64,000 nucleotides of DNA. Source: Candidatus Saccharibacteria bacterium 49-20. GTDB lineage: Bacteria; Patescibacteriota; Saccharimonadia; Saccharimonadales; Saccharimonadaceae. The DNA is taken from assembly GCA_001897295.1 (NCBI GenBank), contig MKSN01000001.1, positions 454,011 through 518,010 on the forward strand. Direction: 5' to 3'. The translations under genes were made by a program, and so were the position numbers. Under the pieces are notes generated by a model that was not told the origin of the DNA, searched no databases, and saw nothing but the letters and a program-made list of their open reading frames with translations. Shown here one piece after another: positions 7,844 through 61,434 of the stretch (positions are counted from its first letter, which is position 1; the number at the start of each line of letters is the position of its first letter).

Positions 7844-8920
7844 ATGCATACACCCTCAGTACTTATTGCCGATGATACAAAAAAGCAGGTAAATGATTAC
7901 CTTGCCGAGTACAGTGTTCGACGCATACGCGAGGCGGAGGCAATTGGACCGTCGTACGTACGCCTGCGCGAAGCCATTGATCGCCTTATTCAGGTTGGCG
8001 GAAAGCGCCTTCGCCCCGCCATGGTGCTGGCGACATTTCGAGCCTATGAGCCACACGAGTCGCTGAAAAGCGTACTGCCCGCAGCTGCTGCGCAGGAATT
8101 GCTCCACCTTTCAATGCTCGTACACGACGACATTATTGACCGCGACGTCACGCGCTATGGCATCCCAAACGTTGAAGGTTCTTTTTTAAGCTTCTATGAA
8201 CCATTTATTGAAAGCACCGAAGAACGACGTCACTTTGCATTAAGCGCGGCAATTCTTGCGGGAGATGCGCTGCTTGCCGATGCACACCAACTCATTCGCA
8301 GTACCGATCGCCCCGCAGCACTTGTGCGGCAAGTTGAAGATATTATGTCGGAATCTGTGTTTTCTGTCATCGGCGGAGAATTGCTTGATACGGAGTCGGG
8401 GATTCTTGTTGATGAAACTATTTACCCACTCGACGTCGCGCAGCATAAAACAAGCAGCTACTCTTTCGTTGGCCCACTTACCACAGGTGCAATACTTGCG
8501 CACGCACCAGAACAAGATATTCAACTCCTCGCGCAATTCGGCACCTACCTCGGCATTGCGTATCAACTGCAAGACGATCTACTTGGTGTATTCGGAGACG
8601 AGCAAAAGACGGGCAAGAGTACCGTGAGTGATATCCGTGAAGGTAAGAGAACTTTCATGATTCAGGAATTCGAACGTCTCGCAGACAGCGACGCACAGTC
8701 TGAATTTTTTGCGATATTTCACCGTGAAGATGCGAGCGATGCAGAACTTAGTCGCGCTCGCACCCTGCTAGACGAATCGGGTGCGAAACAAGCCACGGAA
8801 TCGAGAATCGCATTTTATACCAATGAATGCGAGACACTCCTTGCAAGCCTTTCACTCGAAGAAGGACGACGGGGTGTATTTTATGAACTAATCCAAACCT
8901 GTGTAGTCCGAGAATCATAG
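7844..8920 (+). CDS. crtE: Polyprenyl diphosphate synthase (probable GGPP synthase)
   Basis: 358 residues. Trans-prenyltransferase condensing IPP with allylic diphosphates; in this context probably making geranylgeranyl diphosphate for phytoene. First Asp-rich motif is LVHDDIIDRD, second is QLQDDLLGVFGDE; GGKRLRPAMV near the N-terminus is the IPP-binding basic motif. A -10 like TATAGT ends 10 nt before the ATG, so it may have a short-leader promoter of its own as well as read-through from the MMPL gene. It ends 2 nt before crtB. Product chain length cannot be fixed by eye. No MEP or mevalonate genes are in the window, so the source of IPP/DMAPP is unknown. Confidence 0.9.
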   Translation: MHTPSVLIADDTKKQVNDYLAEYSVRRIREAEAIGPSYVRLREAIDRLIQVGGKRLRPAMVLATFRAYEPHESLKSVLPAAAAQELLHLSMLVHDDIIDRDVTRYGIPNVEGSFLSFYEPFIESTEERRHFALSAAILAGDALLADAHQLIRSTDRPAALVRQVEDIMSESVFSVIGGELLDTESGILVDETIYPLDVAQHKTSSYSFVGPLTTGAILAHAPEQDIQLLAQFGTYLGIAYQLQDDLLGVFGDEQKTGKSTVSDIREGKRTFMIQEFERLADSDAQSEFFAIFHREDASDAELSRARTLLDESGAKQATESRIAFYTNECETLLASLSLEEGRRGVFYELIQTCVVRES

Positions 8921-8922
8921 CT

Positions 8923-9762
8923 ATGGAACTCTACACAAAAACTTCGTACGAAATAAGTCGAACCCTCACGCTTCGCTACTCAACTTCATTTGGCAAAAGC
9001 ACAAAGTTGTTTCCAAAGACCATGCAGCCGCACATCTTTGCAATCTATGGCCTCGTGCGAGTGGCCGATGAAATTGTCGATACCTACACGGGCGACCATC
9101 AAGAAGCGCTTCTTGATGAACTCGAACAAGACGCCTACCGCGCACTTAAAGTTCAGTATAGCGCGAATCCTCTTGTGCACGCGTTTGCAGTAACTGCAAA
9201 GCAATTCAATATCGATGACTCGCTGATACAACCATTCTTCAGAAGCATGCGCCTTGATCTAGCGCCTCGCACCTACACACAAAAATTGTACGAAGAATAT
9301 ATTTACGGCTCAGCGGAAGTAATAGGACTTATGTGCTTAAAGGTATTCGTTCACGGAGATGAGAGCGCATACGCTCGCCTGAGTCCAGGTGCAAGTGCAC
9401 TCGGTGCTGCCTACCAAAAAGTAAACTTCCTGCGTGATATTGCGAGCGATTACTACGATCGCGGCCGAATGTATTTTCCAGAAATAAAGTTTGAGACCTT
9501 TGATGAAGCACAAAAGCGCGCCGTTGTTGCTGATATCGAAGCCGATTTCTTGGCCGCAGAGTCATCGATACGCGACCTCCCTAAAAGCTCGCGCGCGGCC
9601 GTAGGCTTAAGCCATGCGTATTACCTCGAATTGCTTAAGAAGCTAAAAGCGACACCCATCGAAACTATCAAAAAAAGCCGCATTCGTGTCCCTGCTGGCA
9701 AAAAGGCCGCACTAGGCCTGCGTCATTCACTGAACATACAAAAAGGAACCCGCATATGGTAA
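8923..9762 (+). CDS. crtB: Phytoene synthase
   Basis: 279 residues. Head-to-head condensation of two GGPP molecules to phytoene. The trans-isoprenyl synthase motifs are present: RVADEIVDTY in the first third and NFLRDIASDYYDRGRMYFP in the second (family form LRDIxED..RGRxYxP). The initial SFGKSTKLFPK resembles the squalene/phytoene synthase start. It begins 2 nt after crtE and its last 7 nt overlap crtI, so it is translationally coupled in the carotenoid operon. Assignment is firm from motifs and context. Confidence 0.93.
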   Translation: MELYTKTSYEISRTLTLRYSTSFGKSTKLFPKTMQPHIFAIYGLVRVADEIVDTYTGDHQEALLDELEQDAYRALKVQYSANPLVHAFAVTAKQFNIDDSLIQPFFRSMRLDLAPRTYTQKLYEEYIYGSAEVIGLMCLKVFVHGDESAYARLSPGASALGAAYQKVNFLRDIASDYYDRGRMYFPEIKFETFDEAQKRAVVADIEADFLAAESSIRDLPKSSRAAVGLSHAYYLELLKKLKATPIETIKKSRIRVPAGKKAALGLRHSLNIQKGTRIW

Positions 9763-11228
9763 AAGTTGTCATCATTGGTGGTGGAATTGGTGGACTTGCC
9801 ACTGCCAATCTACTCGCGCAGGAAGGCCACGAAGTCCACGTCTACGAGAAGAATACGCAGCTTGGCGGGAGGGCAGGGCAGTTCAAAAAAGATGGGTTCA
9901 CCTTCGATACTGGACCCTCTTGGTATTTAATGCCAGATGTATTTGAGCGCTACTACTCGCTTCTTGGCACTTCGACAAAAAAGGAACTCGACCTCGTGCG
10001 ACTTTCGCCAGCGTACAAAGTGTACTCAGGAGACACTTCGCTTACCATTTCTGGCGACCTCAAAAAAGATGCAGCGACATTCGAGTCACTCGAAAGGGGA
10101 GCGGGCAACAAACTCCACTCGTACGTCGCGCAAAGTCTTATTACATACAGATTTGCCCTCAAGCATTTCCTGTACAGCAACTTCGATTCAGCGCGACCTT
10201 TTACGAAAGGTGAGATTTTGCGAAATGGTGCACGCATGTCGCAGCTTGCATTATCACCAATTCACCGTTATGTGGCAAAGCAGTTTAAAAATACGCAGCT
10301 CCAGCAAATTTTAGAGTACCCTACGGTATTCCTAGGAAGCTCCCCATATAGCGCACCCGCGCTCTACAGTCTGATGAGCGCCCTTGATTTCCATGATGGC
10401 GTGTATTATCCAAAGGGTACTATGTACGCAGTGGTAGAATCCCTAGAAAAAATTGGGCGCGGCCTTGGTGTGTCCTACCACACCGGCGTTGCTGTGCGCA
10501 CCATCCAAACTAAATCCAAAAAAGCCACCGCGCTGATACTCGAGGACGGCAGTAAAGTTGAAGCCGATATTATCATCGCCAATAGCGATCTTCACTTTAC
10601 CGAAACCTCGCTACTCGCGCCAAAAGACCAAACGTATCCGGAATCATATTGGCGCAAAAAAGAAGCGAGTCCAAGCGCGCTATTGATGTACCTTGGCATA
10701 GAGGGGAGCATTCCGGAATTCGAACACCATACACTTCTTTTTACCAATAACTGGAAGAAGAATTTCGATACAATCTTTCACGAAAAAGCCATTCCTAAGC
10801 CCGCTTCACTCTATATATCGAAAACGAGTGCCACCGACACTACCGCACCGAAAGGTAAGGAAAATATTTTCGTGCTCGTGCCGCTTCCATCAGGTATTAC
10901 AATTCCTGCAGAACAACTTGAAGATCTTGCCGACACGTATCTAGAGCAAATCAAGCACACCACCGGCGTCGACCTGAAGGCTCGAACTATTTCGCGCACA
11001 CTTTTTGGGCCCAATGATTTCAGTGCAAAATATAATGCATGGCAATCAAGCATGCTGGGACCGTCTCACATCCTGCGTCAAAGCGCATTCTTCCGAACTC
11101 CCAACAAAAGCAAAAAGTTACACAACCTCTACTATGTCGGTGCGTCGACCGTCCCGGGCATAGGTGTTCCAATGTGCCTTATTAGTGCCGAGCTCGTATC
11201 TGAGCGCATTCGAAAGGATATTGCGTAA
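9756..11228 (+). CDS. crtI: Phytoene desaturase (CrtI type)
   Basis: 490 residues. FAD-dependent desaturase converting phytoene to lycopene. N-terminal dinucleotide-binding motif GGGIGGLATANLLAQEG followed by YEKNTQLGGRAG; C-terminal FAD/substrate signature YYVGASTVPGIGVPMCLIS. Length is normal for CrtI. It overlaps crtB by 7 nt upstream and its TAATG stop/start joins the first lycopene cyclase subunit. How many desaturation steps it performs cannot be read, but the following cyclase and elongase genes imply lycopene as the product. Confidence 0.93.
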   Translation: MVKVVIIGGGIGGLATANLLAQEGHEVHVYEKNTQLGGRAGQFKKDGFTFDTGPSWYLMPDVFERYYSLLGTSTKKELDLVRLSPAYKVYSGDTSLTISGDLKKDAATFESLERGAGNKLHSYVAQSLITYRFALKHFLYSNFDSARPFTKGEILRNGARMSQLALSPIHRYVAKQFKNTQLQQILEYPTVFLGSSPYSAPALYSLMSALDFHDGVYYPKGTMYAVVESLEKIGRGLGVSYHTGVAVRTIQTKSKKATALILEDGSKVEADIIIANSDLHFTETSLLAPKDQTYPESYWRKKEASPSALLMYLGIEGSIPEFEHHTLLFTNNWKKNFDTIFHEKAIPKPASLYISKTSATDTTAPKGKENIFVLVPLPSGITIPAEQLEDLADTYLEQIKHTTGVDLKARTISRTLFGPNDFSAKYNAWQSSMLGPSHILRQSAFFRTPNKSKKLHNLYYVGASTVPGIGVPMCLISAELVSERIRKDIA

Positions 11229-11542
11229 TGACATTCGCATACCTCACAGGACTTCTTATCGGCATCGCCGGGATGGCTACAATAGACTGGCGCTATAAGC
11301 TTGCATTTTGGCGAAACAAAAAACAAACTTGGGCAATCGTACTCACTGCAATGGCCGTATTTCTTGTGTGGGATTTCTTAGGAATTTGGCTTGGCATTTT
11401 TATTGGCGGTACGAGTCAGTATCAGCTACCATTTAGTCTTGCTCCGCATTTCCCACTCGAAGAGCTATTCTTCCTTTTCCTTCTTTCATACTGCACACTT
11501 GTCATTTATTCAGGAGTTCGCACATGGCGTTCACGTATCTAG
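11228..11542 (+). CDS. crtYc: Lycopene cyclase subunit, first half (CrtYc/CrtYe-like)
   Basis: 104 residues with three membrane segments; a heterodimeric lycopene beta/epsilon-type cyclase subunit like those of actinobacteria. The conserved acidic turn APHFPLEELFF lies at the end of the second loop (family pattern P-x-E-E/D-x-x-F). The start codon shares a base with the crtI stop, and the last 19 nt overlap the second subunit gene, so the two subunits should be made in equal amounts. In C50 pathways homologous subunits cyclise the elongated carotenoid; ring type cannot be told from sequence. Confidence 0.85.
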   Translation: MTFAYLTGLLIGIAGMATIDWRYKLAFWRNKKQTWAIVLTAMAVFLVWDFLGIWLGIFIGGTSQYQLPFSLAPHFPLEELFFLFLLSYCTLVIYSGVRTWRSRI

Positions 11543-11826
11543 TACTCAACATCATTTTCTGCGTCATTATACTTTTCTTGTTTGCCAGAAAATTCAAACG
11601 CCCATCCAAAAGCTGGTGGATAACGCTTGGTATCGTACTACTCTTAACACTCGTGTTCGACAACCTTGCCATATGGGCAGGATTCTTCTCTTACAATCCG
11701 TCGCTCATACTTGGCATACATTTAGGTCTCGCACCAATTGAGGACTTCTTCTACGCATTTATGGCATGTCTCCTGATTCCATTGTTGCTTGACCGATTTT
11801 CAACAGCGAAGGAGTCCGCAGTATGA
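11524..11826 (+). CDS. crtYd: Lycopene cyclase subunit, second half (CrtYd/CrtYf-like)
   Basis: 100 residues with three membrane segments and the diagnostic GLAPIEDFFYAFM turn, matching the second subunit of heterodimeric carotenoid cyclases. It overlaps the first subunit by 19 nt and the elongase gene by 4 nt (ATGA). The tight overlaps and small size are typical of actinobacterial crtYc/crtYd or crtYe/crtYf pairs. I name it by resemblance; exact ring chemistry is not decidable here. Confidence 0.85.
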   Translation: MAFTYLVLNIIFCVIILFLFARKFKRPSKSWWITLGIVLLLTLVFDNLAIWAGFFSYNPSLILGIHLGLAPIEDFFYAFMACLLIPLLLDRFSTAKESAV

Positions 11827-12707
11827 GTAAGGCTGAAACCCTCAAAAAGCTATTCTTAGTATCGCGGCCTATCTCTTGGCCAAACACAAGCTACCCATTT
11901 GCCGCTGGCTACATCATCGCAACTCTTTTAAGCGGGGTGCCCCTCCAGCTACCCGCACTCATACTCGGCACCTTGTATTTCATCGGACCCTACAATCTTC
12001 TGATGTATGGCATTAACGATATATTTGACTACGAATCTGATATCAAAAATCCCCGCAAGGGTGGGGTAGAGGGCATGAAAGAGTCACGCGCGTTGCACCC
12101 CGCAATCATGCGCGCCGTACTCTGGACGAACATACCATTCATCATTGCACTGCTCGCCCTAGGCTCATGGCACGCAAACATCGCGCTACTCGTCGTTGTC
12201 TTCGCCGCAATTGCCTATTCGGCAGAAGGCCTTCGGTTCAAGGAAATCCCCCTACTTGATTCAATTACAAGCAGCCTGCACTTTGTGGGGCCACTCGTAT
12301 ATGCGCTGCTGCTCGTAAATTTCCCGGTACACGCATGGCCATGGGTGACTGCGTTCTTCCTATGGGGCATGGCGTCTCACGCATTCGGTGCAGTGCAAGA
12401 TATCATTCCAGACAGAAAGGGCGACATTAAGTCGATTGCAACACTATTCGGGGCAAGAGCTACGGTTATCTTCTCGGTTGCGCTTTATGTAGTCGCAACG
12501 CTACTAGTACTTACTCAAGGACTTGTGTATATTCCTATCGCCGCGATGGGGGCATGCTACATCGCGAATAGCGCCCGGTTTATCACGGTGAATGACAAGA
12601 CTTCTGCTTCAACAAATAAAGGCTGGAAACAATTTCTATGGCTCAACTACGTCACCGGCATGATCATAACTTTCGTCATCATCATCAATCTTTCGACTCA
12701 TTTCTAG
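11823..12707 (+). CDS. crtEb: UbiA-family prenyltransferase, probable lycopene elongase
   Basis: 294 residues with about eight membrane segments. UbiA-type Asp-rich motif NDIFDYESDIKNPRKGG (residues about 64-80), a form characteristic of lycopene elongases that add C5 units to lycopene to give C50 carotenoids; a second acidic motif is VQDIIPDRKGDIKS. Last gene of the carotenoid operon, overlapping crtYd by 4 nt. With the split cyclase it suggests a C50 product of the decaprenoxanthin/sarcinaxanthin class. An alternative is prenylation of another isoprenoid or quinone head group, but the context favours carotenoid. Confidence 0.82.
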   Translation: MSKAETLKKLFLVSRPISWPNTSYPFAAGYIIATLLSGVPLQLPALILGTLYFIGPYNLLMYGINDIFDYESDIKNPRKGGVEGMKESRALHPAIMRAVLWTNIPFIIALLALGSWHANIALLVVVFAAIAYSAEGLRFKEIPLLDSITSSLHFVGPLVYALLLVNFPVHAWPWVTAFFLWGMASHAFGAVQDIIPDRKGDIKSIATLFGARATVIFSVALYVVATLLVLTQGLVYIPIAAMGACYIANSARFITVNDKTSASTNKGWKQFLWLNYVTGMIITFVIIINLSTHF

Positions 12708-14987: not shown

Positions 14988-15986
14988 ATGGCAAAAATCC
15001 TACTAGTAGAAGATGACAAAAGCCTACGCGAGATTTATGGCGTCCGTTTGATGGCCGAAGGATACGAAATCGTATCTGCAGGCGACGGTGAAGAAGCGCT
15101 CGCAATGGCAATTAAAGAACGTCCTGACCTCATCGTCAGTGACGTCATGATGCCGAAGATTAGCGGGTTCGACATGCTCGATATTCTTCGTAGTACCTCT
15201 GAGACAAAAGACGTAAAGGTGATTATGATGACCGCGCTTTCAAGCGACGATCAGCGCGCCCGTGGTGAATCGCTCGGCGCCGACCGTTACCTTGTGAAGT
15301 CACAAGTTGGTATCGAAGACGTTGTCCGCACCGTGCACGACGTACTTGGCGATGGCCTTGGTGGCGCGCCTGCAGCGCAGGCACCTGCACCAATTGCCGC
15401 TCCCGCACCGGCACCGCTTACCGTTGCGCCAGCACCTGCACCAGCTCCAACGCCAGAGCCTGTTGTCGCAGCGCCAGCCGCTCCAGCGCCCGCATTTGTA
15501 CCTGAGCCTCTTACTGTTGCACCAGCACCAGTAGCAGCTGCACCAGCTTTCGAGCCAGCCGCTCCCGTAGCCGCACCGGCACTTGACCCAGCATACGCTG
15601 CGCCTGCGCCCGCTCCAGCACCGCTTACCGTTGCGCCAGCACCTGCACCAGCTCCAATGCCAGAGCCTGTTGTCGCAGCGCCAGCCGCTCCAGCGTCTGC
15701 ATTTGTACCTGAGCCTCTTACTGTTGCACCAGCACCAGTAGCAGCTGCACCAGCACCTGCGAGCACGACTCTCAACGAGCTTCCTGCAAACCCGGCACCA
15801 TTACCACAGCCAACCGCGCCATTCTCATCTCCAGCGCCTGCATCGCTTGGCGAGCGCGTCATCGAACCACTCACGACAAACCTCAACGCCGCAGGTCCTG
15901 TCGACATCGCAAGCCAAATGGCACAAGCGCTGAACGACCCAACAAATCCTGGCCAAGGTACACCACCAGTACCGCCCGCAGCCTAG
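14988..15986 (+). CDS. Response regulator with Ala/Pro repeat tail
   Basis: 332 residues. REC domain at 1-122 with E8-D9-D10, phosphoacceptor D52 in IVSDVMMP, T82 in MTALS and K104 in YLVKSQ. Residues about 125-332 are an Ala/Pro/Val low-complexity tail without a recognisable DNA-binding domain; the core of the tail is an imperfectly duplicated unit containing APLTVAPAPAPAP and EPVVAAPAAPA, produced by a 137-bp DNA repeat. The receiver closely resembles the lone receiver at 63525-63917 (shared DxMMPKISGFDxLDILR), so the two are paralogues. TAGAAT ends 10 nt before the ATG. Output mechanism unknown. Confidence 0.9.
   Translation: MAKILLVEDDKSLREIYGVRLMAEGYEIVSAGDGEEALAMAIKERPDLIVSDVMMPKISGFDMLDILRSTSETKDVKVIMMTALSSDDQRARGESLGADRYLVKSQVGIEDVVRTVHDVLGDGLGGAPAAQAPAPIAAPAPAPLTVAPAPAPAPTPEPVVAAPAAPAPAFVPEPLTVAPAPVAAAPAFEPAAPVAAPALDPAYAAPAPAPAPLTVAPAPAPAPMPEPVVAAPAAPASAFVPEPLTVAPAPVAAAPAPASTTLNELPANPAPLPQPTAPFSSPAPASLGERVIEPLTTNLNAAGPVDIASQMAQALNDPTNPGQGTPPVPPAA
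15411..15547 (+). repeat. 137-bp imperfect direct repeat, copy 1
   Basis: Matches 15618-15754 with three C/T differences by eye; inside the Ala/Pro tail of the response regulator and in frame (offset 207 nt). Suggests tail expansion by duplication. Confidence 0.85.
15618..15754 (+). repeat. 137-bp imperfect direct repeat, copy 2
   Basis: Second copy of the repeat at 15411-15547, same frame, so the encoded 46-residue unit is duplicated almost unchanged. Confidence 0.85.
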
Positions 15987-20103: not shown

Positions 20104-20616
20104 ATGGAACCAAACGAGGACGACCCCGGACTAGCCCCCGAGGTCATCTCACACGTCGTACCCGTAAGCGCTGACAAAGACCTCCGAGTCCGACTCATCA
20201 TCAACAAGGCGTTCGCGATCTACCAAGAGCTCCTGTGGTACGACCCGCACCGCAAGAACACCGAAGTTCGCTCGGTGCCAGAAGTCCTCCCCGAAAAGGT
20301 TCAGCCGAAGCGTCGTGGACTCTTCGTGCGCCAGCCTCGCACTCCTCAGCCCAAGCTCGAAGAGAAGCGGTGCTGGACCATCGGAAAGACCCTGTTCGAT
20401 GCGATGGCGCATATGCCCCAGCAGCTCTTCATTGCCTCGAACGGCATCCCGTACTGCTCGTTCGTCAAGCTGGGCAAGCCCACGCGCTACGAGCAGCTGA
20501 CTCCTGCGTTCCTGAACAGGCAGAGCGACTCCGTTCTGAACAGCATGCTCGCTGAGCTGCATGATGAACATCGGAGACTGCTCAAGAAACGCGCCAAGGG
20601 CAAGAAGGCCGCATAG
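20104..20616 (+). CDS. Hypothetical protein (GC-rich cassette)
   Basis: 170 residues, soluble, with basic central and C-terminal parts (QPKRRGLFVRQPRTPQPK; ends KKRAKGKKAA). No family recognised; the basic character would suit nucleic-acid binding, but this is a guess. Start ATG 20104 has AAGGAA 6 nt upstream; the TTG eight codons earlier has none. Codons favour CTC/CTG, AAG and GAG, unlike pth. One-gene unit with its own promoter and a terminator hairpin. Confidence 0.7.
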   Translation: MEPNEDDPGLAPEVISHVVPVSADKDLRVRLIINKAFAIYQELLWYDPHRKNTEVRSVPEVLPEKVQPKRRGLFVRQPRTPQPKLEEKRCWTIGKTLFDAMAHMPQQLFIASNGIPYCSFVKLGKPTRYEQLTPAFLNRQSDSVLNSMLAELHDEHRRLLKKRAKGKKAA

Positions 20617-21129: not shown

Positions 21130-21990
21130 ATGAAATTAGGAAAAATCAATAGACAAAGTATAGGAATAAGCGGTTTCACCTCTGTATTGAATCGTTACGA
21201 GGGCATGCCAAAAGAGCTGTATATCGCAGGAGTGCTTCCAACCGAGCGTGCAGTCACCGTTGCGATTATAGGGTCACGGAAACCAACAGCTTACGGAAAA
21301 GAAGTCACCCACAGGCTCGCATACGAGCTTGCTAAAAGGGGAGTGATTATCGTGAGCGGCCTGGCGTACGGGGTCGATGCCATCGCCCACGAAGCGGCGC
21401 TCGAAGCAGGCGGCACCACAATCGCGGTCATGGCGAATGGGTTACATCGCGTATACCCGGTAGCTCACACACGCCTTGCGGAGCGCATCATCGCGAAGGG
21501 CGGTGCGCTTATTTCCGAGCAACCAGTGGGACTCGATGCGCATAAATATCACTTCCTCGCGCGAAACCGTATCGTTAGCGGACTCGCCGACGCCGTGATT
21601 GTGACCGAGGCAGCGCATCGAAGCGGAACATTCTCGACGGTATCCCACGCCATTACCCAGAACAAAGAGGTATTTGCAGTGCCGGGGCCCATTACAAGCC
21701 TACTGTCGGCTGGACCAAACCGATTACTCCAGGAAGGCGCGCACCTCGTGCTTACGTACGAAGACATCCTGAGTGTCATTGCACCCGACCTTCTTACCGA
21801 TACAAAGCAGCTCCCGCTCGGTTCGAGTCCGCTTGAAGTGCAAATCATCCAACAAATCCAGCAAGGCAACGCATCACTTGATGGCGTACTCTCCGCCGTT
21901 GACGCTTCCACAACCGAAATCCTTCAGTCCGTCACGGCCATGGAGCTTGCAGGTACACTTCGCGTCGTGGCGGGCCGGCTCTACCTTTGA
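21130..21990 (+). CDS. dprA: DNA processing protein DprA
   Basis: 286 residues. Single-strand DNA-binding protein that loads RecA during natural transformation. Rossmann-like core: GSRKPTAYGKEV, VSGLAYGVDAIAHEAAL, GGTTIAVMANGLHRVYPVAH, GGALISEQPVG, then FLARNRIVSGLADAVIVTEA and FAVPGPI. N-terminal part is shorter than in many DprA proteins. ATG 21130 chosen because TATTCT ends at 21120; GTG 21124 would be only 3 nt away. Together with the pilin gene at 26.5 kb it is consistent with DNA uptake. Its TGA stop (21988-21990) lies inside the -35 of the next cassette. Confidence 0.93.
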   Translation: MKLGKINRQSIGISGFTSVLNRYEGMPKELYIAGVLPTERAVTVAIIGSRKPTAYGKEVTHRLAYELAKRGVIIVSGLAYGVDAIAHEAALEAGGTTIAVMANGLHRVYPVAHTRLAERIIAKGGALISEQPVGLDAHKYHFLARNRIVSGLADAVIVTEAAHRSGTFSTVSHAITQNKEVFAVPGPITSLLSAGPNRLLQEGAHLVLTYEDILSVIAPDLLTDTKQLPLGSSPLEVQIIQQIQQGNASLDGVLSAVDASTTEILQSVTAMELAGTLRVVAGRLYL

Positions 21991-22015
21991 TTTTTTGTGC
22001 ATTTTATTCTATAAT
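21987..22015 (+). promoter_or_regulatory. Promoter of the 22083-22628 cassette, overlapping the dprA stop
   Basis: TTGATT (21987-21992), 17-nt spacer, TATAAT (22010-22015). The -35 contains the dprA stop codon. Leader of about 60 nt. Confidence 0.85.
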
Positions 22016-22082
22016 AAGTAAGCTCTTTCCGGACGGGAAGGGCGCAGAAAAGACATCCGCACACCCACTGAATCGAGGATTC

Positions 22083-22628
22083 ATGCACGAACAGTATGCG
22101 TATTTGTCGTCCACCGACTTCACGCGTATCGCAGCTGACCTGCTGCCGCTCCTCGACGCCGTCCTGGAGCACAGCGACACGCTGCGGCCCGAGATCGTCA
22201 AGGTCTACAGGCCGCACCCGCTGGCAAGGCGCCTGGCGTCAACCATCGTCCGCTCGCTTCCCGGCAAGATAGGGGAGCGCAGCTTCGGTGAGCGGCCGAT
22301 CAACGAGATGCTGGGTTACAGGTTCTCGGACCCCGATCACCCTGACATCGTCGGCGTGATCGTCGAGGCCGATGGACACATGTTCATCGCCACGCCGTAC
22401 CAGCCCATGCTGCGTCAGCCCTCCGAGCTGTACATCCTGCACGCCAAGCTGGAAGGCTACGTCGAGGTCTGCCTGGCCGGTGACATGGTCGGCACGGCAA
22501 CGATGGCCGCGGTCAACGTCGACAACGCGCGCTACGCGATCGAGCGTCTGCTGCCCGACGGGCACCAGATGAAGCGTCCCACGCGCAAGCCGGAAGATGC
22601 CTGCATCGACGGACGCACCCGCGTCTAA
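22083..22628 (+). CDS. Hypothetical protein (GC-rich cassette)
   Basis: 181 residues, soluble, acidic to neutral, no signal or membrane segment and no recognised family. The middle (about 60-145) looks like an alpha/beta domain (EMLGYRFSDPDHPDIVGVIV). ATG 22083 has GAGG just upstream. The frame is open to 21987 but that part is the promoter and leader. Codon use is strongly GC-rich (CTG, GAC, GTC). First of three consecutive one-gene cassettes between dprA and topA, each with promoter and terminator. Confidence 0.72.
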   Translation: MHEQYAYLSSTDFTRIAADLLPLLDAVLEHSDTLRPEIVKVYRPHPLARRLASTIVRSLPGKIGERSFGERPINEMLGYRFSDPDHPDIVGVIVEADGHMFIATPYQPMLRQPSELYILHAKLEGYVEVCLAGDMVGTATMAAVNVDNARYAIERLLPDGHQMKRPTRKPEDACIDGRTRV

Positions 22629-22691
22629 TCGCATCGACACACCCAGCACCCGCTGGATACCATGTCACCTCAAGTGGCGGAACTACCGTCC

Positions 22692-22715
22692 CGCCCTCAG
22701 CTCACGCTGGGGGCG
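22692..22715 (+). terminator. Terminator of the 22083-22628 cassette
   Basis: Ten-bp stem CGCCCTCAGC/GCTGGGGGCG (one T-G pair), loop TCAC, tail TCTTCATTTATTG; no continuous T run. The -35 of the next cassette begins 11 nt after the stem. Confidence 0.8.
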
Positions 22716-22726
22716 CTCTTCATTTA

Positions 22727-22755
22727 TTGACTTTTTATCATACTTATGCTATAAT
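22727..22755 (+). promoter_or_regulatory. Promoter of the 22832-23293 cassette
   Basis: TTGACT (22727-22732), 17-nt spacer ending in TGC, TATAAT (22750-22755). Differs from the promoter at 23356-23384 at only three spacer positions. The leader holds the 12-nt palindrome GTTCACGTGAAC within a longer CTCGA..TCGAG inverted repeat. Confidence 0.88.
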
Positions 22756-22831
22756 TCGCAAATCGTCAACCTCCGACCAATCCTCGAGGTTCACGTGAAC
22801 TTCGAGCCAATCAGTTAGGAACCCGATCGCC

Positions 22832-23293
22832 ATGATCGCACCCTTGCAAGACCGTCTCGCATCCATGTCCGACGACGACCAGCAGAAGTACATCGAGCGC
22901 CAGGTGCTGCTCGAGCAGCTGCTGCGCCAGTCCACGCTGCACGCAACCTTCGACAACCTCAGTCGCTACGACGAGGGCATCGTCGACCGCGGCGAGGACT
23001 CCATCGTCGAAGACACCGGAGTCGTCTTCCTCGGCGTCCACCGGACCGGCGGGGGAGGTGCACTGCACCTCGTCGTCTTCCGCGGACGAGTGTCCGGCAT
23101 GAGCAGCTTCGGCTGGATCGACCCGTCGGCACAGATGATGCAGATCCACCCCGTCGACGAGCTGGTCTTCAGCCTCACCGACGAGGAGTTCGATCGACTG
23201 TTCGCCATCAAGGCGGAGATGGACACCCGTCAGCGCCGCGAAGCACAGACGCAGCCCATCGACATCGTCGATGCCATCATCGTCGACGACTGA
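22832..23293 (+). CDS. Hypothetical protein (GC-rich cassette)
   Basis: 153 residues, acidic, soluble, not recognised. N-terminal 40 residues look helical (DDDQQKYIERQVLLEQLLRQ), the centre is Gly-rich beta-like (GVHRTGGGGALHLVVFRG), and the C-terminus is helical then acidic. ATG 22832 follows AGGA at an unusually wide gap of about 11 nt. Its N-terminal helix vaguely resembles that of the next cassette protein (both begin DRLxxM...Q), which together with the near-identical promoters hints at a common origin, but sequence identity is low by eye. Confidence 0.72.
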   Translation: MIAPLQDRLASMSDDDQQKYIERQVLLEQLLRQSTLHATFDNLSRYDEGIVDRGEDSIVEDTGVVFLGVHRTGGGGALHLVVFRGRVSGMSSFGWIDPSAQMMQIHPVDELVFSLTDEEFDRLFAIKAEMDTRQRREAQTQPIDIVDAIIVDD

Positions 23294-23318
23294 GGAGCCC
23301 AGCTCCCGGCTCGAAGTT

Positions 23319-23342
23319 GCCCACCCTGGAATACGGGTGGGC
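23319..23342 (+). terminator. Terminator of the 22832-23293 cassette
   Basis: Perfect 8-bp stem GCCCACCC/GGGTGGGC, 8-nt loop, tail GCTTCATAT without a T run. Confidence 0.8.
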
Positions 23343-23355
23343 GCTTCATATCTAA

Positions 23356-23384
23356 TTGACTTTTTATTGCACTTATGCTATAAT
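23356..23384 (+). promoter_or_regulatory. Promoter of the 23450-23899 cassette
   Basis: TTGACT (23356-23361), 17-nt spacer ending in TGC, TATAAT (23379-23384). Confidence 0.88.
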
Positions 23385-23449
23385 AAACAAACTAATCTCG
23401 CCCTACTTTCGAGATTACGAGATCTTCGACACAACCGAAAGGCACTATC

Positions 23450-23899
23450 ATGACATCATTGACCGCCACCCCGACAGACCGCCTACTTCTCAAGATGCAG
23501 GACCAGCTCGCGCAGTCCGACATCGAGAAGCTGCGCATGCTGCAGGGCGTCGCCAACCTGCTGACGACTCACCAGGAGTTCATTCACCTGAACGTCTCGC
23601 TCACCGGCGCCGCCTCGCACCTCAGGGTAGCGGATGGACCGTCGCCCTACATCGACGTCAACGTGACGGTCGAAGGCAAGCGGCTCATCATGATGCCGCT
23701 GAAGCTCAAGAGCCAGACGTACGGGCTGTTCGACCCTGACACCCGTGTCGCCGACATGGTGACACTGGACGACCTGGTCGACATGCTGACCCCGAGGGGT
23801 CTGGCGGCCTACGTGGGACGACTCAACCAGCACGCACACCTGCGCGCCGAGCACCGCGAGGTCGCACTCCCGGAGATGAAGCTGCCCAAGCGGTTGTGA
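23450..23899 (+). CDS. Hypothetical protein (GC-rich cassette)
   Basis: 149 residues, soluble, not recognised. N-terminal helix (residues about 8-45), then a beta-rich middle (IDVNVTVEGKRLIMMPLKLK) and a helical C-terminus. ATG 23450 has AAAGG at a gap of 8 nt. GC-rich codons throughout. Third of the three tandem cassettes; topA follows after its terminator. Confidence 0.72.
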   Translation: MTSLTATPTDRLLLKMQDQLAQSDIEKLRMLQGVANLLTTHQEFIHLNVSLTGAASHLRVADGPSPYIDVNVTVEGKRLIMMPLKLKSQTYGLFDPDTRVADMVTLDDLVDMLTPRGLAAYVGRLNQHAHLRAEHREVALPEMKLPKRL

Positions 23900-23911
23900 G
23901 AAATACTCGCA

Positions 23912-23943
23912 GGCCCGTCCTCTCACTACATAGAGGGCGGGCC
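23912..23943 (+). terminator. Terminator of the 23450-23899 cassette
   Basis: Twelve-bp stem GGCCCGTCCTCT/AGAGGGCGGGCC (one T-G pair), 8-nt loop, tail GCTTCATTTCC. Confidence 0.85.
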
Positions 23944-24073
23944 GCTTCATTTCCAAGGGGTTTTGCTTTACAAAGTATTGTGAAGTGGTGTACACTCCAC
24001 CGTTGTGCAAAGCACGTTGCAACGCACGGCAAACTTAAGCACTTATTTAGAACCCTTTAGTATACTTATATAT

Positions 24074-31714: not shown

Positions 31715-31840
31715 CGACGTATCCAGAGTGCAGCGAGAGAACTAGCTCAATGACCTGCCGGCAACCAGTCTTATCATCTCCCAAAGAATGAGGACACGGT
31801 GCCCCTTCTAGCCCTGAAGAACTTCGGGGGAAGATAACAG
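31715..31840 (+). promoter_or_regulatory. SAM-I (S-box) riboswitch upstream of metK
   Basis: All main parts of the S-box aptamer can be paired by eye. P1: TATC (31720-31723) with GATA (31833-31836). P2: GCAG/CTGC and GAG/CTC enclosing the AGAACTAG loop and the AATGA turn. The conserved CCGGCAACC and the matching GGTGCC bound P3 (GTC/GAC and TCAT/ATGA inside). A CTAG in the P2 loop can pair with CTAG after P3 as the pseudoknot. P4 is CCCTGAAG/CTTCGGGG. The downstream ATCTT...AAGAT hairpin may be the expression platform; mechanism (transcription or translation) is not clear. It should lower metK expression when SAM is plentiful. Confidence 0.88.
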
Positions 31841-59749: not shown

Positions 59750-60931
59750 ATGCATATTGCCCTTTTAGGTCGCCAACCCGAACTCTCTATCGCCGAACTC
59801 GAGCGAGTTTTTACAAAAGTATCTTGGTTTTCGCCACAAACCGCCCTCATCGACACCGACGAAGCGATTGATATTCAAAAACTTGGCGGTTCACAAAAAA
59901 TCGGACGTGTCATTCTTGAAGTCGATTCAACCGAATGGCGTCACGTATCAGGCGCGCTTGTAAAACACTACGCCAAAATCTGGTCTGTCGCTGCAGGTAA
60001 AATTACCCTTGGACTCAGTGCCTACGACTTTAAGCTTTCGCCTCGTGAGCTCCAAAAGTCCGGCCTCATTCTAAAAAGTAAGCTCAAGAGTGGCGGCGTC
60101 AGTCTTCGTCTCGTACCAAACCAAGAAGTTGCGCTAAGTACCGCTACGTCGCACCACAACAAGTTGGGTCTTTCTGACAATAAAGTCGAGCTTCTTATTA
60201 TTCGCGGTAAAAACTCAACTATCATCGCCGAAAGCATCGGTGCGCAAAATATTACAGCCCTCGCTGCCCGTGACCAGGGCCGCCCACGCCGTGACGCTTT
60301 CGTAGGGATGCTCCCGCCAAAGCTCGCGCAAATTATGATCAACCTTGCAGGCCCGCTTGCAGCCGACCCGACCCAAGACCTCGCCCAACCGCGCGTGCTC
60401 GACCCATTCTGTGGCACCGGCGTCCTACTTCAAGAGGCGATGCTTATGGGGTATGACGTTTACGGAACTGACCTCTCCGAAAAAATGATTCGCTACAGTC
60501 GTGAGAACCTCAACTGGTTGCAGGATAAGTACCAGCTCACTGGGCACTGGTACCTCCATGAAGGCGACGCGACTGACACAAAATGGCAACAACCTATCGC
60601 CGCCGTTGTAACCGAAACGTATCTTGGTCAACCGTTTAGCGCACCACCTTCAAGCGCCAAGCTTACCGAAGTTAGAGGTAATTGTAACCATATTATTGGT
60701 GGTTTCCTTAAGAATCTTTCAAAACAGCTCAAGCCCGGCACACCCGTAGTGCTCGCTGTCCCAGCTTGGAAAGACAAATCAGATAACTTCACTCACCTTC
60801 CTCTTACTACCAAGATTGAAGACTATGGCTTTAAGCGTATGACGCTTACTACTGTAGACGCCGACCGCCTTATGTATTTCCGACCCGACCAAGTTGTTGC
60901 GCGCGAATTACTGCTTCTTACAGTGAAATAA
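59750..60931 (+). CDS. TRM11-like RNA methyltransferase
   Basis: 393 residues. N-terminal region (1-170) of THUMP-like type, then a Rossmann methylase with motif I LDPFCGTGVLLQEAMLMGYDVYGTDLS (residues about 205-240). The usual NPPY-type catalytic motif appears altered (VTETYLGQP), as in TRM11-like proteins. Probably modifies a guanosine in tRNA. TATAAT (59738-59743) ends 6 nt before the ATG. Divergent from the flippase-like gene; the two -10 elements are about 60 nt apart. Confidence 0.85.
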   Translation: MHIALLGRQPELSIAELERVFTKVSWFSPQTALIDTDEAIDIQKLGGSQKIGRVILEVDSTEWRHVSGALVKHYAKIWSVAAGKITLGLSAYDFKLSPRELQKSGLILKSKLKSGGVSLRLVPNQEVALSTATSHHNKLGLSDNKVELLIIRGKNSTIIAESIGAQNITALAARDQGRPRRDAFVGMLPPKLAQIMINLAGPLAADPTQDLAQPRVLDPFCGTGVLLQEAMLMGYDVYGTDLSEKMIRYSRENLNWLQDKYQLTGHWYLHEGDATDTKWQQPIAAVVTETYLGQPFSAPPSSAKLTEVRGNCNHIIGGFLKNLSKQLKPGTPVVLAVPAWKDKSDNFTHLPLTTKIEDYGFKRMTLTTVDADRLMYFRPDQVVARELLLLTVK

Positions 60932-61028: not shown

Positions 61029-61434
61029 AAAACCTCCTCGCCCGTCGATGCTTAAAATCTACAGAGGTCATAAATCACAGAACCCGCCGCCAGGCGGACC
61101 GTGAGGCCCCACAAAAGTTTCCTAAAGTGACGCGTTAACGAACCTGAACGACGGGATCAGTGTTGTTAACGCGATTTTCAACCATACCTTACACTGAATA
61201 GCCCAAGGGTTAGGTCGTTCTGCCGAATTGTAATGAATCGCAGGGCGTAGCCCGCGCTCACCCCTGATTGTACCATAGCAATGATGAAATAATCTTGAGA
61301 TTGGAGTGGAGATTGGCCGTTGGTGTGTTTGAGCGACATCTGCAGCCCAAGTCGAACCAGGCGCAGAGGCCCTGGTGAGACATGGCGCGAAGCCGTCCGA
61401 AAACATAGCAAGGGCCAATCTCCCCCTCTACCCC
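61029..61434. other. Non-coding region with two structured elements
   Basis: No protein gene seen. On the minus strand, from a -10 at 61272-61267, the leader of the 36-residue gene contains a 9-bp helix CGCGTTAAC/GTTAACGCG (61131-61139 with 61165-61173) and further GC-rich hairpins. To its right, 61309-61422 is closed by a perfect 10-bp helix GAGATTGGCC/GGCCAATCTC and contains CCAGG/CCTGG and GGC/GCC hairpins; GAGATTGG is also directly repeated at 61297-61304 and 61309-61316. Strand and identity of this 114-nt element are unknown. Confidence 0.55.

Follow-up and report, generated by a model that had tools for sequence, protein, structure and literature searches.

Ten small, predicted transcription units with GC-rich third codon positions are scattered among the core genes of a 64,000-nucleotide stretch of Candidatus Saccharibacteria bacterium 49-20 (the window; bases 454011-518010 of a single-contig chromosome of 904,897 bp). 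Our analysis suggests that they are members of a family-wide accessory gene class, resident in Saccharibacteria and held to its codon regime by selection, a reading to which we give about an even chance of being right. A preliminary description of the window had listed the units as a recurring class of independently expressed genes in an epibiont-type genome and had called them probably acquired. Their separate codon usage, own promoters, and hairpins agree with the first statement and make independent expression probable. The second, taken to mean recent foreign DNA, did not hold: homologues at near-saturated distances keep a high GC content at third codon positions (GC3), the corresponding slots in relatives hold members of the class, second-position GC and amino acid content are unlike those of a GC-rich donor, and searches of narrow reach found no donor.

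All ten units were present at their listed positions (Table 1). Their 12 genes have GC3 values of 0.67 to 0.87, compared with about 0.51 for the core. For 352 genes sampled from about 0.39 Mb of the 0.9-Mb genome, GC3 was not equal in the two groups: a two-Gaussian fit gave one component at 0.51 ± 0.047 (92.1% of genes) and another at 0.811 ± 0.049 (7.9%), 6 standard deviations apart, and all ten units fell in the second. The Bayesian information criterion was -935 for two components versus -658 for one, and the gap between GC3 0.65 and 0.75 contained 3 of 273 genes. High-GC3 genes (cassettes) thus make up about 1 in 13 genes in the sampled part of this host-dependent genome. The previously listed units themselves served to train the first gene-finder model; the GC3 histogram is independent of that label. 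The reported preference for CTG, CAG, GAG, and ATC was borne out by shifts from core to cassette of.13 to.48,.44 to.89,.34 to.73, and.40 to.86, respectively, and TTC for Phe (about.5 to.93) and AAG for Lys (.53 to.90) shifted likewise.

The class extends beyond the window. Sampling of 248 kb in the genome interval from 290 to 538 kb gave about 30 high-GC3 genes, compared with about 1 in the 180 kb sampled outside that interval. The sign of GC skew switches at about 310 to 365 kb, with a second switch between 760 and 820 kb; the cluster of high-GC3 genes therefore lies on the terminus side, mostly in one replichore. No high-GC3 class was seen in samples of 17 to 40 kb each from six other families of the order. 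A genome of a seventh family (G053; core GC3, 0.29) has a doubtful pair of high-GC3 open reading frames (L087:15203-15949), which may be a noncoding RNA region or contamination. Literature searches found no description of such a gene class.

Each of the ten units consists of one to three genes and a hairpin downstream of them (-20 to -36 kcal/mol; mean, -28.7 kcal/mol), compared with a mean of -12.3 kcal/mol for 20 core gene ends. Near-consensus sigma-70-type promoters precede most units. The shared layout proposed earlier thus stood for gene number, hairpins, and most promoters, but promoters are poor at 20104 and 31310, leaders are about 32 to 92 nt rather than 60 to 100 nt in most units, and gene 4726 is nearly leaderless, beginning 7 nt past its -10 box. 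On a simple scale of promoter consensus, 13 of 29 cassettes and 19 of 218 core genes in the sampled genome scored 11 or higher, a comparison that is generous to the cassettes because many core genes are operon internal. The units lie next to core genes of the chromosome (der, pth, dprA, topA, metK, glyS, and recO). Three units stand in tandem in the dprA-topA gap (21987-23943), and the promoter is the sole repeat common to them (positions 21900 to 24010). No integrase, transposase, or shared end sequence was seen at the units among the window genes and, for repeats, in the three-unit array.

The unit proteins, unrecognized in the preliminary description, matched no Pfam, PHROG, or NCBIfam family above cut-off. 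At least five are membrane proteins or lipoproteins (4726, with a lipobox, 18800, 32946, 33194, and 33372), where at least four had been claimed. Eleven unit proteins compared with 295 genomes of the family gave weak matches only, mostly to lipoprotein 4726. Its homologues in other genera are 26 to 34% identical, with GC3 values of 0.84 (G123), 0.88 (G171), 0.80 (G023), and 0.61 (G100). The protein of gene 22832 had no homologue among 60 relatives. AlphaFold models of two window proteins were of low confidence (predicted local distance difference test score of 55 for unit 4 and 43 for the other), and a fold search with them found no match. Elsewhere in the genome, the class includes a TPM-domain protein of 600 amino acids (aa) with a Gly/Ser-rich tail, a large surface protein (one stretch masked with N), and an HhH-domain protein; two class proteins occupy a slot where a relative has a Clp_N-domain protein.

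Slots were compared in this genome and 12 others of the same genus (13 in total), anchored on der, pth, dprA, topA, sigA, and a TraC-like gene. In the 12 relatives, the same intergenic slots were empty or occupied by other high-GC3 genes, some of them orthologous. The dprA-topA gap was empty (44 to 100 nt) in 6 of the 13 genomes and held one to three high-GC3 genes (660 to 2014 nt) in the other 7. The sister species G014 and G015 have two pth-dprA genes and one topA-sigA gene in common, and a dprA-topA gene is present in G015 only. The dprA-topA genes of G008 and G010 are homologous (36% identical), with a tandem paralogue in G008. GC3 of the relatives' slot genes lay 0.2 to 0.3 above the local core, even in G010 (core, 0.41 to 0.42). 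The prfB-ftsE slot holds genes with GC3 of 0.69 to 0.89 in G000, G013, G014, and G015, between flanking genes of 0.41 to 0.50; the slot gene is Clp_N in G013 (E = 2e-16). The surface protein has the same neighbor, a conserved 83-aa gene, in G000, G014, and G015. The units are not ordinary conserved Saccharibacteria genes, and relatives, some of them in other genera of the family, carry the same class. A faint (Y/F)G(V/L)(N/D)P motif uniting the dprA-topA slot proteins was rejected, as all-against-all comparison linked only G008 with G010 and G014 with G015. A correlation of cassette and core GC3 across genomes (r = 0.77, n = 8) was not relied on, because the cutoff by which cassettes were selected biases it.

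The cassette genes are real and under purifying selection, and they diverge roughly 5 to 20 times faster than most core genes. This follows from G014/G015 orthologues, for which nonsynonymous divergence (dN) was 0.07 to 0.23 and synonymous divergence (dS) was 0.23 to 0.63 in cassettes; core genes had dN values of about 0.005 to 0.03 (0.06 for a Pro-rich response regulator) and dS values of 0.34 to 0.66. That pair alone is compatible with slow decay of GC3, since every difference between G or C (S) and A or T (W) could be S to W. Homologous cassettes at greater distances were near saturation: at fourfold sites of identical residues, agreement was 0.23 to 0.49, where independence predicts 0.28 to 0.40, and core topA gave a similar value (0.38) between the same species. 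GC3 was high in both members of such pairs, at 0.91/0.76 for the surface protein of G000/G014 (unmasked part) and 0.70/0.67 for the dprA-topA gene of G008/G010, and the same was true of lipoprotein (0.77/0.84/0.88) and TPM (0.77/0.68/0.81) homologues. Neighbors of the high-GC3 homologous genes had GC3 near 0.4 to 0.55. These results argue that the codon regime is upheld and is not the fading trace of an origin.

The same results make it unlikely, in our estimation, that the cassettes are unameliorated foreign DNA acquired recently from GC-rich donors such as actinobacterial hosts. Orphan status and presence or absence between close species would fit such an origin, as would codon usage, which was closest to that of Gordonia, Methylorubrum, Streptomyces, and Rhodococcus and was matched better by these than by the core plus a uniform GC tilt, by 0.04 nats per codon, so the shift is codon specific. 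The Lys-to-Arg ratio was also shifted, with values of 0.55 in cassettes, 1.15 in the core, and 0.28 in Rhodococcus. However, recent acquisition would imply that GC-rich genes had reached the same slots independently, and GC3 is high both in near-saturated pairs and in same-slot orthologues. Second-position GC was 0.43 in cassettes (core, 0.40), compared with 0.50 in Rhodococcus. The likeness to actinobacteria is unspecific; an explanation by actinobacterial host codon usage was rejected because the likeness is to GC-rich bacteria generally, with Methylorubrum fitting equally well and Arthrobacter not fitting. Donor homologues were absent from the phages, plasmids, and viral contigs searched, which are narrow collections. 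A scan of GTDB contigs with one TPM sequence gave no match, and a second with a TPM alignment gave two, both in Saccharibacteria; these scans reach close relatives only.

A stronger rival, especially where a family occurs in more than one genus, is a Saccharibacteria-specific mobile pool (plasmids, phages, or transformation DNA) that has a GC-rich codon usage of its own and reseeds the slots, each gene staying only briefly in a genome. We regard this as possible but doubtful. Family distribution is patchy (TPM in 4 of 151 genomes), slots turn over, and the layout is moron-like, all of which a mobile pool would explain. It would not predict that orthologues keep their slot across species pairs with a core dS of about 0.5, nor that the surface protein and the dprA-topA gene do so across near-saturated distances. 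The lack of integrases, transposases, shared ends, and PHROG families noted above for the units also speaks against it.

The codon regime itself is very unlikely to reflect translational optimization, whether for high expression or for a match to the tRNAs that the cell encodes. ARAGORN found 39 tRNA genes in this genome (some may be missed), with proline and alanine each apparently served by a single tRNA with U at position 34 (U34), UGG and UGC, respectively. G-ending codons rose most where a tRNA with C at position 34 (C34) exists (Leu, Thr, Ser, Gln, Lys, and Glu), which is what optimization would produce, and there was no comparable rise for Ala, Val, and Gly, for which no C34 tRNA was found. 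An explanation by C34 tRNAs fit most codon boxes but failed for proline and was rejected: CCG and CCC rise in cassettes although only the UGG tRNA was found. Ribosomal proteins, EF-Tu, and EF-G, with GC3 of 0.42 to 0.54, prefer the opposite codons, and no reference set fit cassette codon usage worse than ribosomal proteins and elongation factors. In our judgment, it is highly improbable that the regime arose from local mutation bias or from GC-biased gene conversion at recombination hot spots. The slots are recombination prone and clustered, which would fit. However, unit promoters and leaders are not GC rich (leader mean, 0.51, versus 0.47 for noncoding DNA), and core genes next to the units are ordinary. 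The shift is therefore confined to coding sequence, which disfavors a regional bias, and codons for Arg and Gly depart from what a uniform push towards GC would give.

Message structure was assessed by permuting synonymous codons with protein and codon composition kept and expressing folding as a z score against the permutations. Cassette segments were more stably folded than their permutations. In this genome, mean z was -1.32 for cassettes (n = 20) and -0.46 for core genes (n = 18); in relatives, the values were -2.20 (n = 22) and -0.37 (n = 34). In a sample that included Rhodococcus genes (-0.58, n = 19), z was -1.63 for this genome's cassettes (n = 23) and -0.89 for its core. A larger run gave -1.20 for cassettes (n = 36), compared with -0.69 for the genome's own core (n = 75; p = 0.017) and -0.05 for GC-rich genes of five other bacteria (n = 50; p = 4e-6). 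The excess was constant in direction, and selection on the mRNA is the leading candidate for the codon regime, although not an established cause.

Several points weigh against a resident class maintained by selection. The structure excess over the genome's own core is modest and varies with the run (core mean z from -0.37 to -0.89), the direction alone being constant, and it could have a cause other than selection for structure. Most cassettes have no recognizable homologue, and the case for upkeep of GC3 rests on a handful of families. The intergenus pairs (lipoprotein and TPM) could be separate arrivals from one GC-rich pool. Members of the prfB-ftsE slot match each other only at E values of 0.005 to 0.13, and orthology in that slot is weak except for the Pfam match in G013. 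The protein make-up of the cassettes is slightly shifted towards that of GC-rich bacteria.

If the units are nonetheless a resident class, they would be autonomous transcription units of one to three genes, occupying intergenic sites that recur between conserved genes and lie largely on the terminus side. They may be gained and lost at these slots by natural transformation through homologous flanks, a route that would need no integrase; natural competence has been shown for Saccharibacteria (PMC10633639). Once installed, a unit would be expressed independently. Its protein would evolve quickly, in keeping with contact with a partner that is itself changing, and its message would stay GC3 rich and structured, perhaps for longevity or protection in small, resource-poor cells. 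The products (lipoprotein, surface, membrane, TPM, Clp_N-like, and TPR-like proteins and many orphans) would serve a changing relation with the host. A role in host interaction is plausible, as it would fit both fast evolution and the predicted secreted, lipoprotein, and membrane products. Going further, one might propose two mRNA programs, one ordinary and often leaderless and a second leadered, GC3 rich, and structured, which would serve fast-evolving, outward-facing proteins and be selected as a class (for example, for survival in host-free swarmer cells), with codon choice as the class mark. We consider this proposal rather improbable.

The promoter motif TTGACTTTTTAT-N5-TTATGCTATAAT was found with at most 2 mismatches in 64 of 101 family genomes; the reversed control had 0 among the matches listed. 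Of 54 occurrences read in 50 loci (two were counted twice in overlapping loci), 18, from several genera, preceded a gene whose GC3 was clearly higher than that of the sequence around it. The motif was rejected as a mark of the class, since it also precedes genes of ordinary GC3 and is a general strong promoter of the family. None of 12 genes beginning 6 to 10 nt past the -10 box had high GC3, compared with 16 of 27 (by our count) with leaders of 25 to 130 nt (p = 0.0004), a grouping chosen after the data were seen. In this genome, the leader trend was not significant (2 of 12 versus 18 of 48; p = 0.30). In family genomes, the strong extended -10 promoter motif is thus seen ahead of leaderless ordinary genes and of leadered high-GC3 genes. 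The most extreme case found was G113 (1.4 Mb; loci L184-L187), with many motif-led genes of GC3 0.88 to 0.93; among the relatives, it may be the one most suited to study.

The units can be compared with several known systems. Phage morons, for which criteria are listed in PMC2920897, likewise have their own promoter, gene, and terminator between conserved neighbors, deviant GC content, recurrent slots with different genes in relatives, and fitness-type cargo. The units differ in lying among bacterial core genes rather than in a prophage and in having no PHROG similarity. Moreover, the GC content of morons reflects origin, whereas the high GC3 of the units persists over near-saturated silent-site divergence. 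Integron gene cassettes also form arrays of small unrelated genes, like the three units in tandem. However, they are promoterless and lie downstream of an integrase, whereas most units have their own promoter and no integrase was seen among the window genes. Integron cassettes share an attC recombination site at each end; the only repeat seen in the three-unit array is the promoter. The class III "horizontal" genes of E. coli are AT rich and are read as recent arrivals. They too form a discrete minority codon class rich in orphans and accessory genes, but the class described here is GC rich, and homologues keep it so. Lineage-specific effector and surface gene sets of parasites resemble the units as small, fast-evolving, individually transcribed orphans that include secreted and membrane proteins; the codon regime is an extra, unexplained trait of the units, for which delivery to the host or a role there would be hypothetical.

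Atypical codon usage in small orphans is routinely read as recent transfer, and composition-based calls would misjudge the whole class. Fast-evolving accessory genes of Saccharibacteria, bacteria whose host-interaction genes are mostly unknown, could be listed from sequence alone as monocistronic genes with GC3 about 0.25 above the core and a strong hairpin. Should the class occur in Southlakia epibionticum, a genetically tractable system (PMC10633639), the cause of the codon regime could be tested there.

Table 1. Promoters, genes, and hairpins of the ten units (window positions)
Unit	Feature	Start	End	Strand	Description	GC3
1	Promoter	4690	4718	+	TTGACA-17-TAAAAT	
1	Gene	4726	5343	+	Lipoprotein, 205 aa, lipobox LLSAC, nearly leaderless	0.77
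1	Hairpin	5354	5391	+	-34 kcal/mol	
2	Promoter	19331	19359	-	TTGCTT-17-TATAAT, extended -10	
2	Gene	18800	19249	-	Small membrane protein, about 3 transmembrane segments; weak DUF2721 similarity, below cut-off	
2	Hairpin	18757	18785	-	-27 kcal/mol	
3	Gene	20104	20616	+	Orphan, 170 aa, without clear promoter	0.77
3	Hairpin	20638	20665	+	-25 kcal/mol	
4	Promoter	21987	22015	+	TTGATT-17-TATAAT	
4	Gene	22083	22628	+	Orphan, 181 aa	0.86
4	Hairpin	22692	22713	+	-20 kcal/mol	
5	Promoter	22727	22755	+	Exact TTGACTTTTTAT-N5-TTATGCTATAAT	
5	Gene	22832	23293	+	Orphan, 153 aa	0.86
5	Hairpin	23313	23342	+	-24 kcal/mol	
6	Promoter	23356	23384	+	Exact TTGACTTTTTAT-N5-TTATGCTATAAT motif	
6	Gene	23450	23899	+	Orphan, 149 aa	0.87
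6	Hairpin	23909	23946	+	-27 kcal/mol	
7	Promoter	31250	31278	+	Weak, TTGTTT-17-TATAGT	
7	Gene	31310	31618	+	Orphan, 102 aa; flanked by TraC-like gene and metK S-adenosylmethionine (SAM) riboswitch	0.79
7	Hairpin	31631	31672	+	-33 kcal/mol	
8	Promoter	32877	32904	+	TGGACA-16-TATAAT	
8	Gene 1	32946	33197	+	83 aa, one transmembrane segment	0.74
8	Gene 2	33194	33358	+	54 aa, one transmembrane segment	0.67
8	Gene 3	33372	33617	+	81 aa, one transmembrane segment	0.73
8	Hairpin	33658	33705	+	-30 kcal/mol	
9	Promoter	50992	51020	+	TTGACA-17-CATAAT	
9	Gene	51094	51468	+	Orphan, 124 aa, Cys-rich end	0.80
9	Hairpin	51492	51539	+	-31 kcal/mol	
10	Promoter	53252	53280	+	TTGACT-17-TATAAT	
10	Gene	53373	54179	+	TPR-like, 268 aa; TPR_12 E = 3e-5, under curated cut-off	0.83
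10	Hairpin	54180	54221	+	-36 kcal/mol	

Other features of the window were recorded. The SAM riboswitch ahead of metK lies at 31717-31840 (plus strand), just downstream of unit 7. A LOOT RNA (RF03000, 58.6 bits), a candidate small RNA family, lies at 61096-61216 (minus strand), downstream of 59750-60931 and upstream of the L27 gene. Positions 14988-15986 encode a response regulator with a long Ala-Pro repeat tail that is conserved in relatives. Positions 7844-12707 hold a likely carotenoid cluster, read from its proteins: a polyprenyl synthase, phytoene synthase and desaturase, two lycopene-cyclase halves, and a UbiA-type enzyme.

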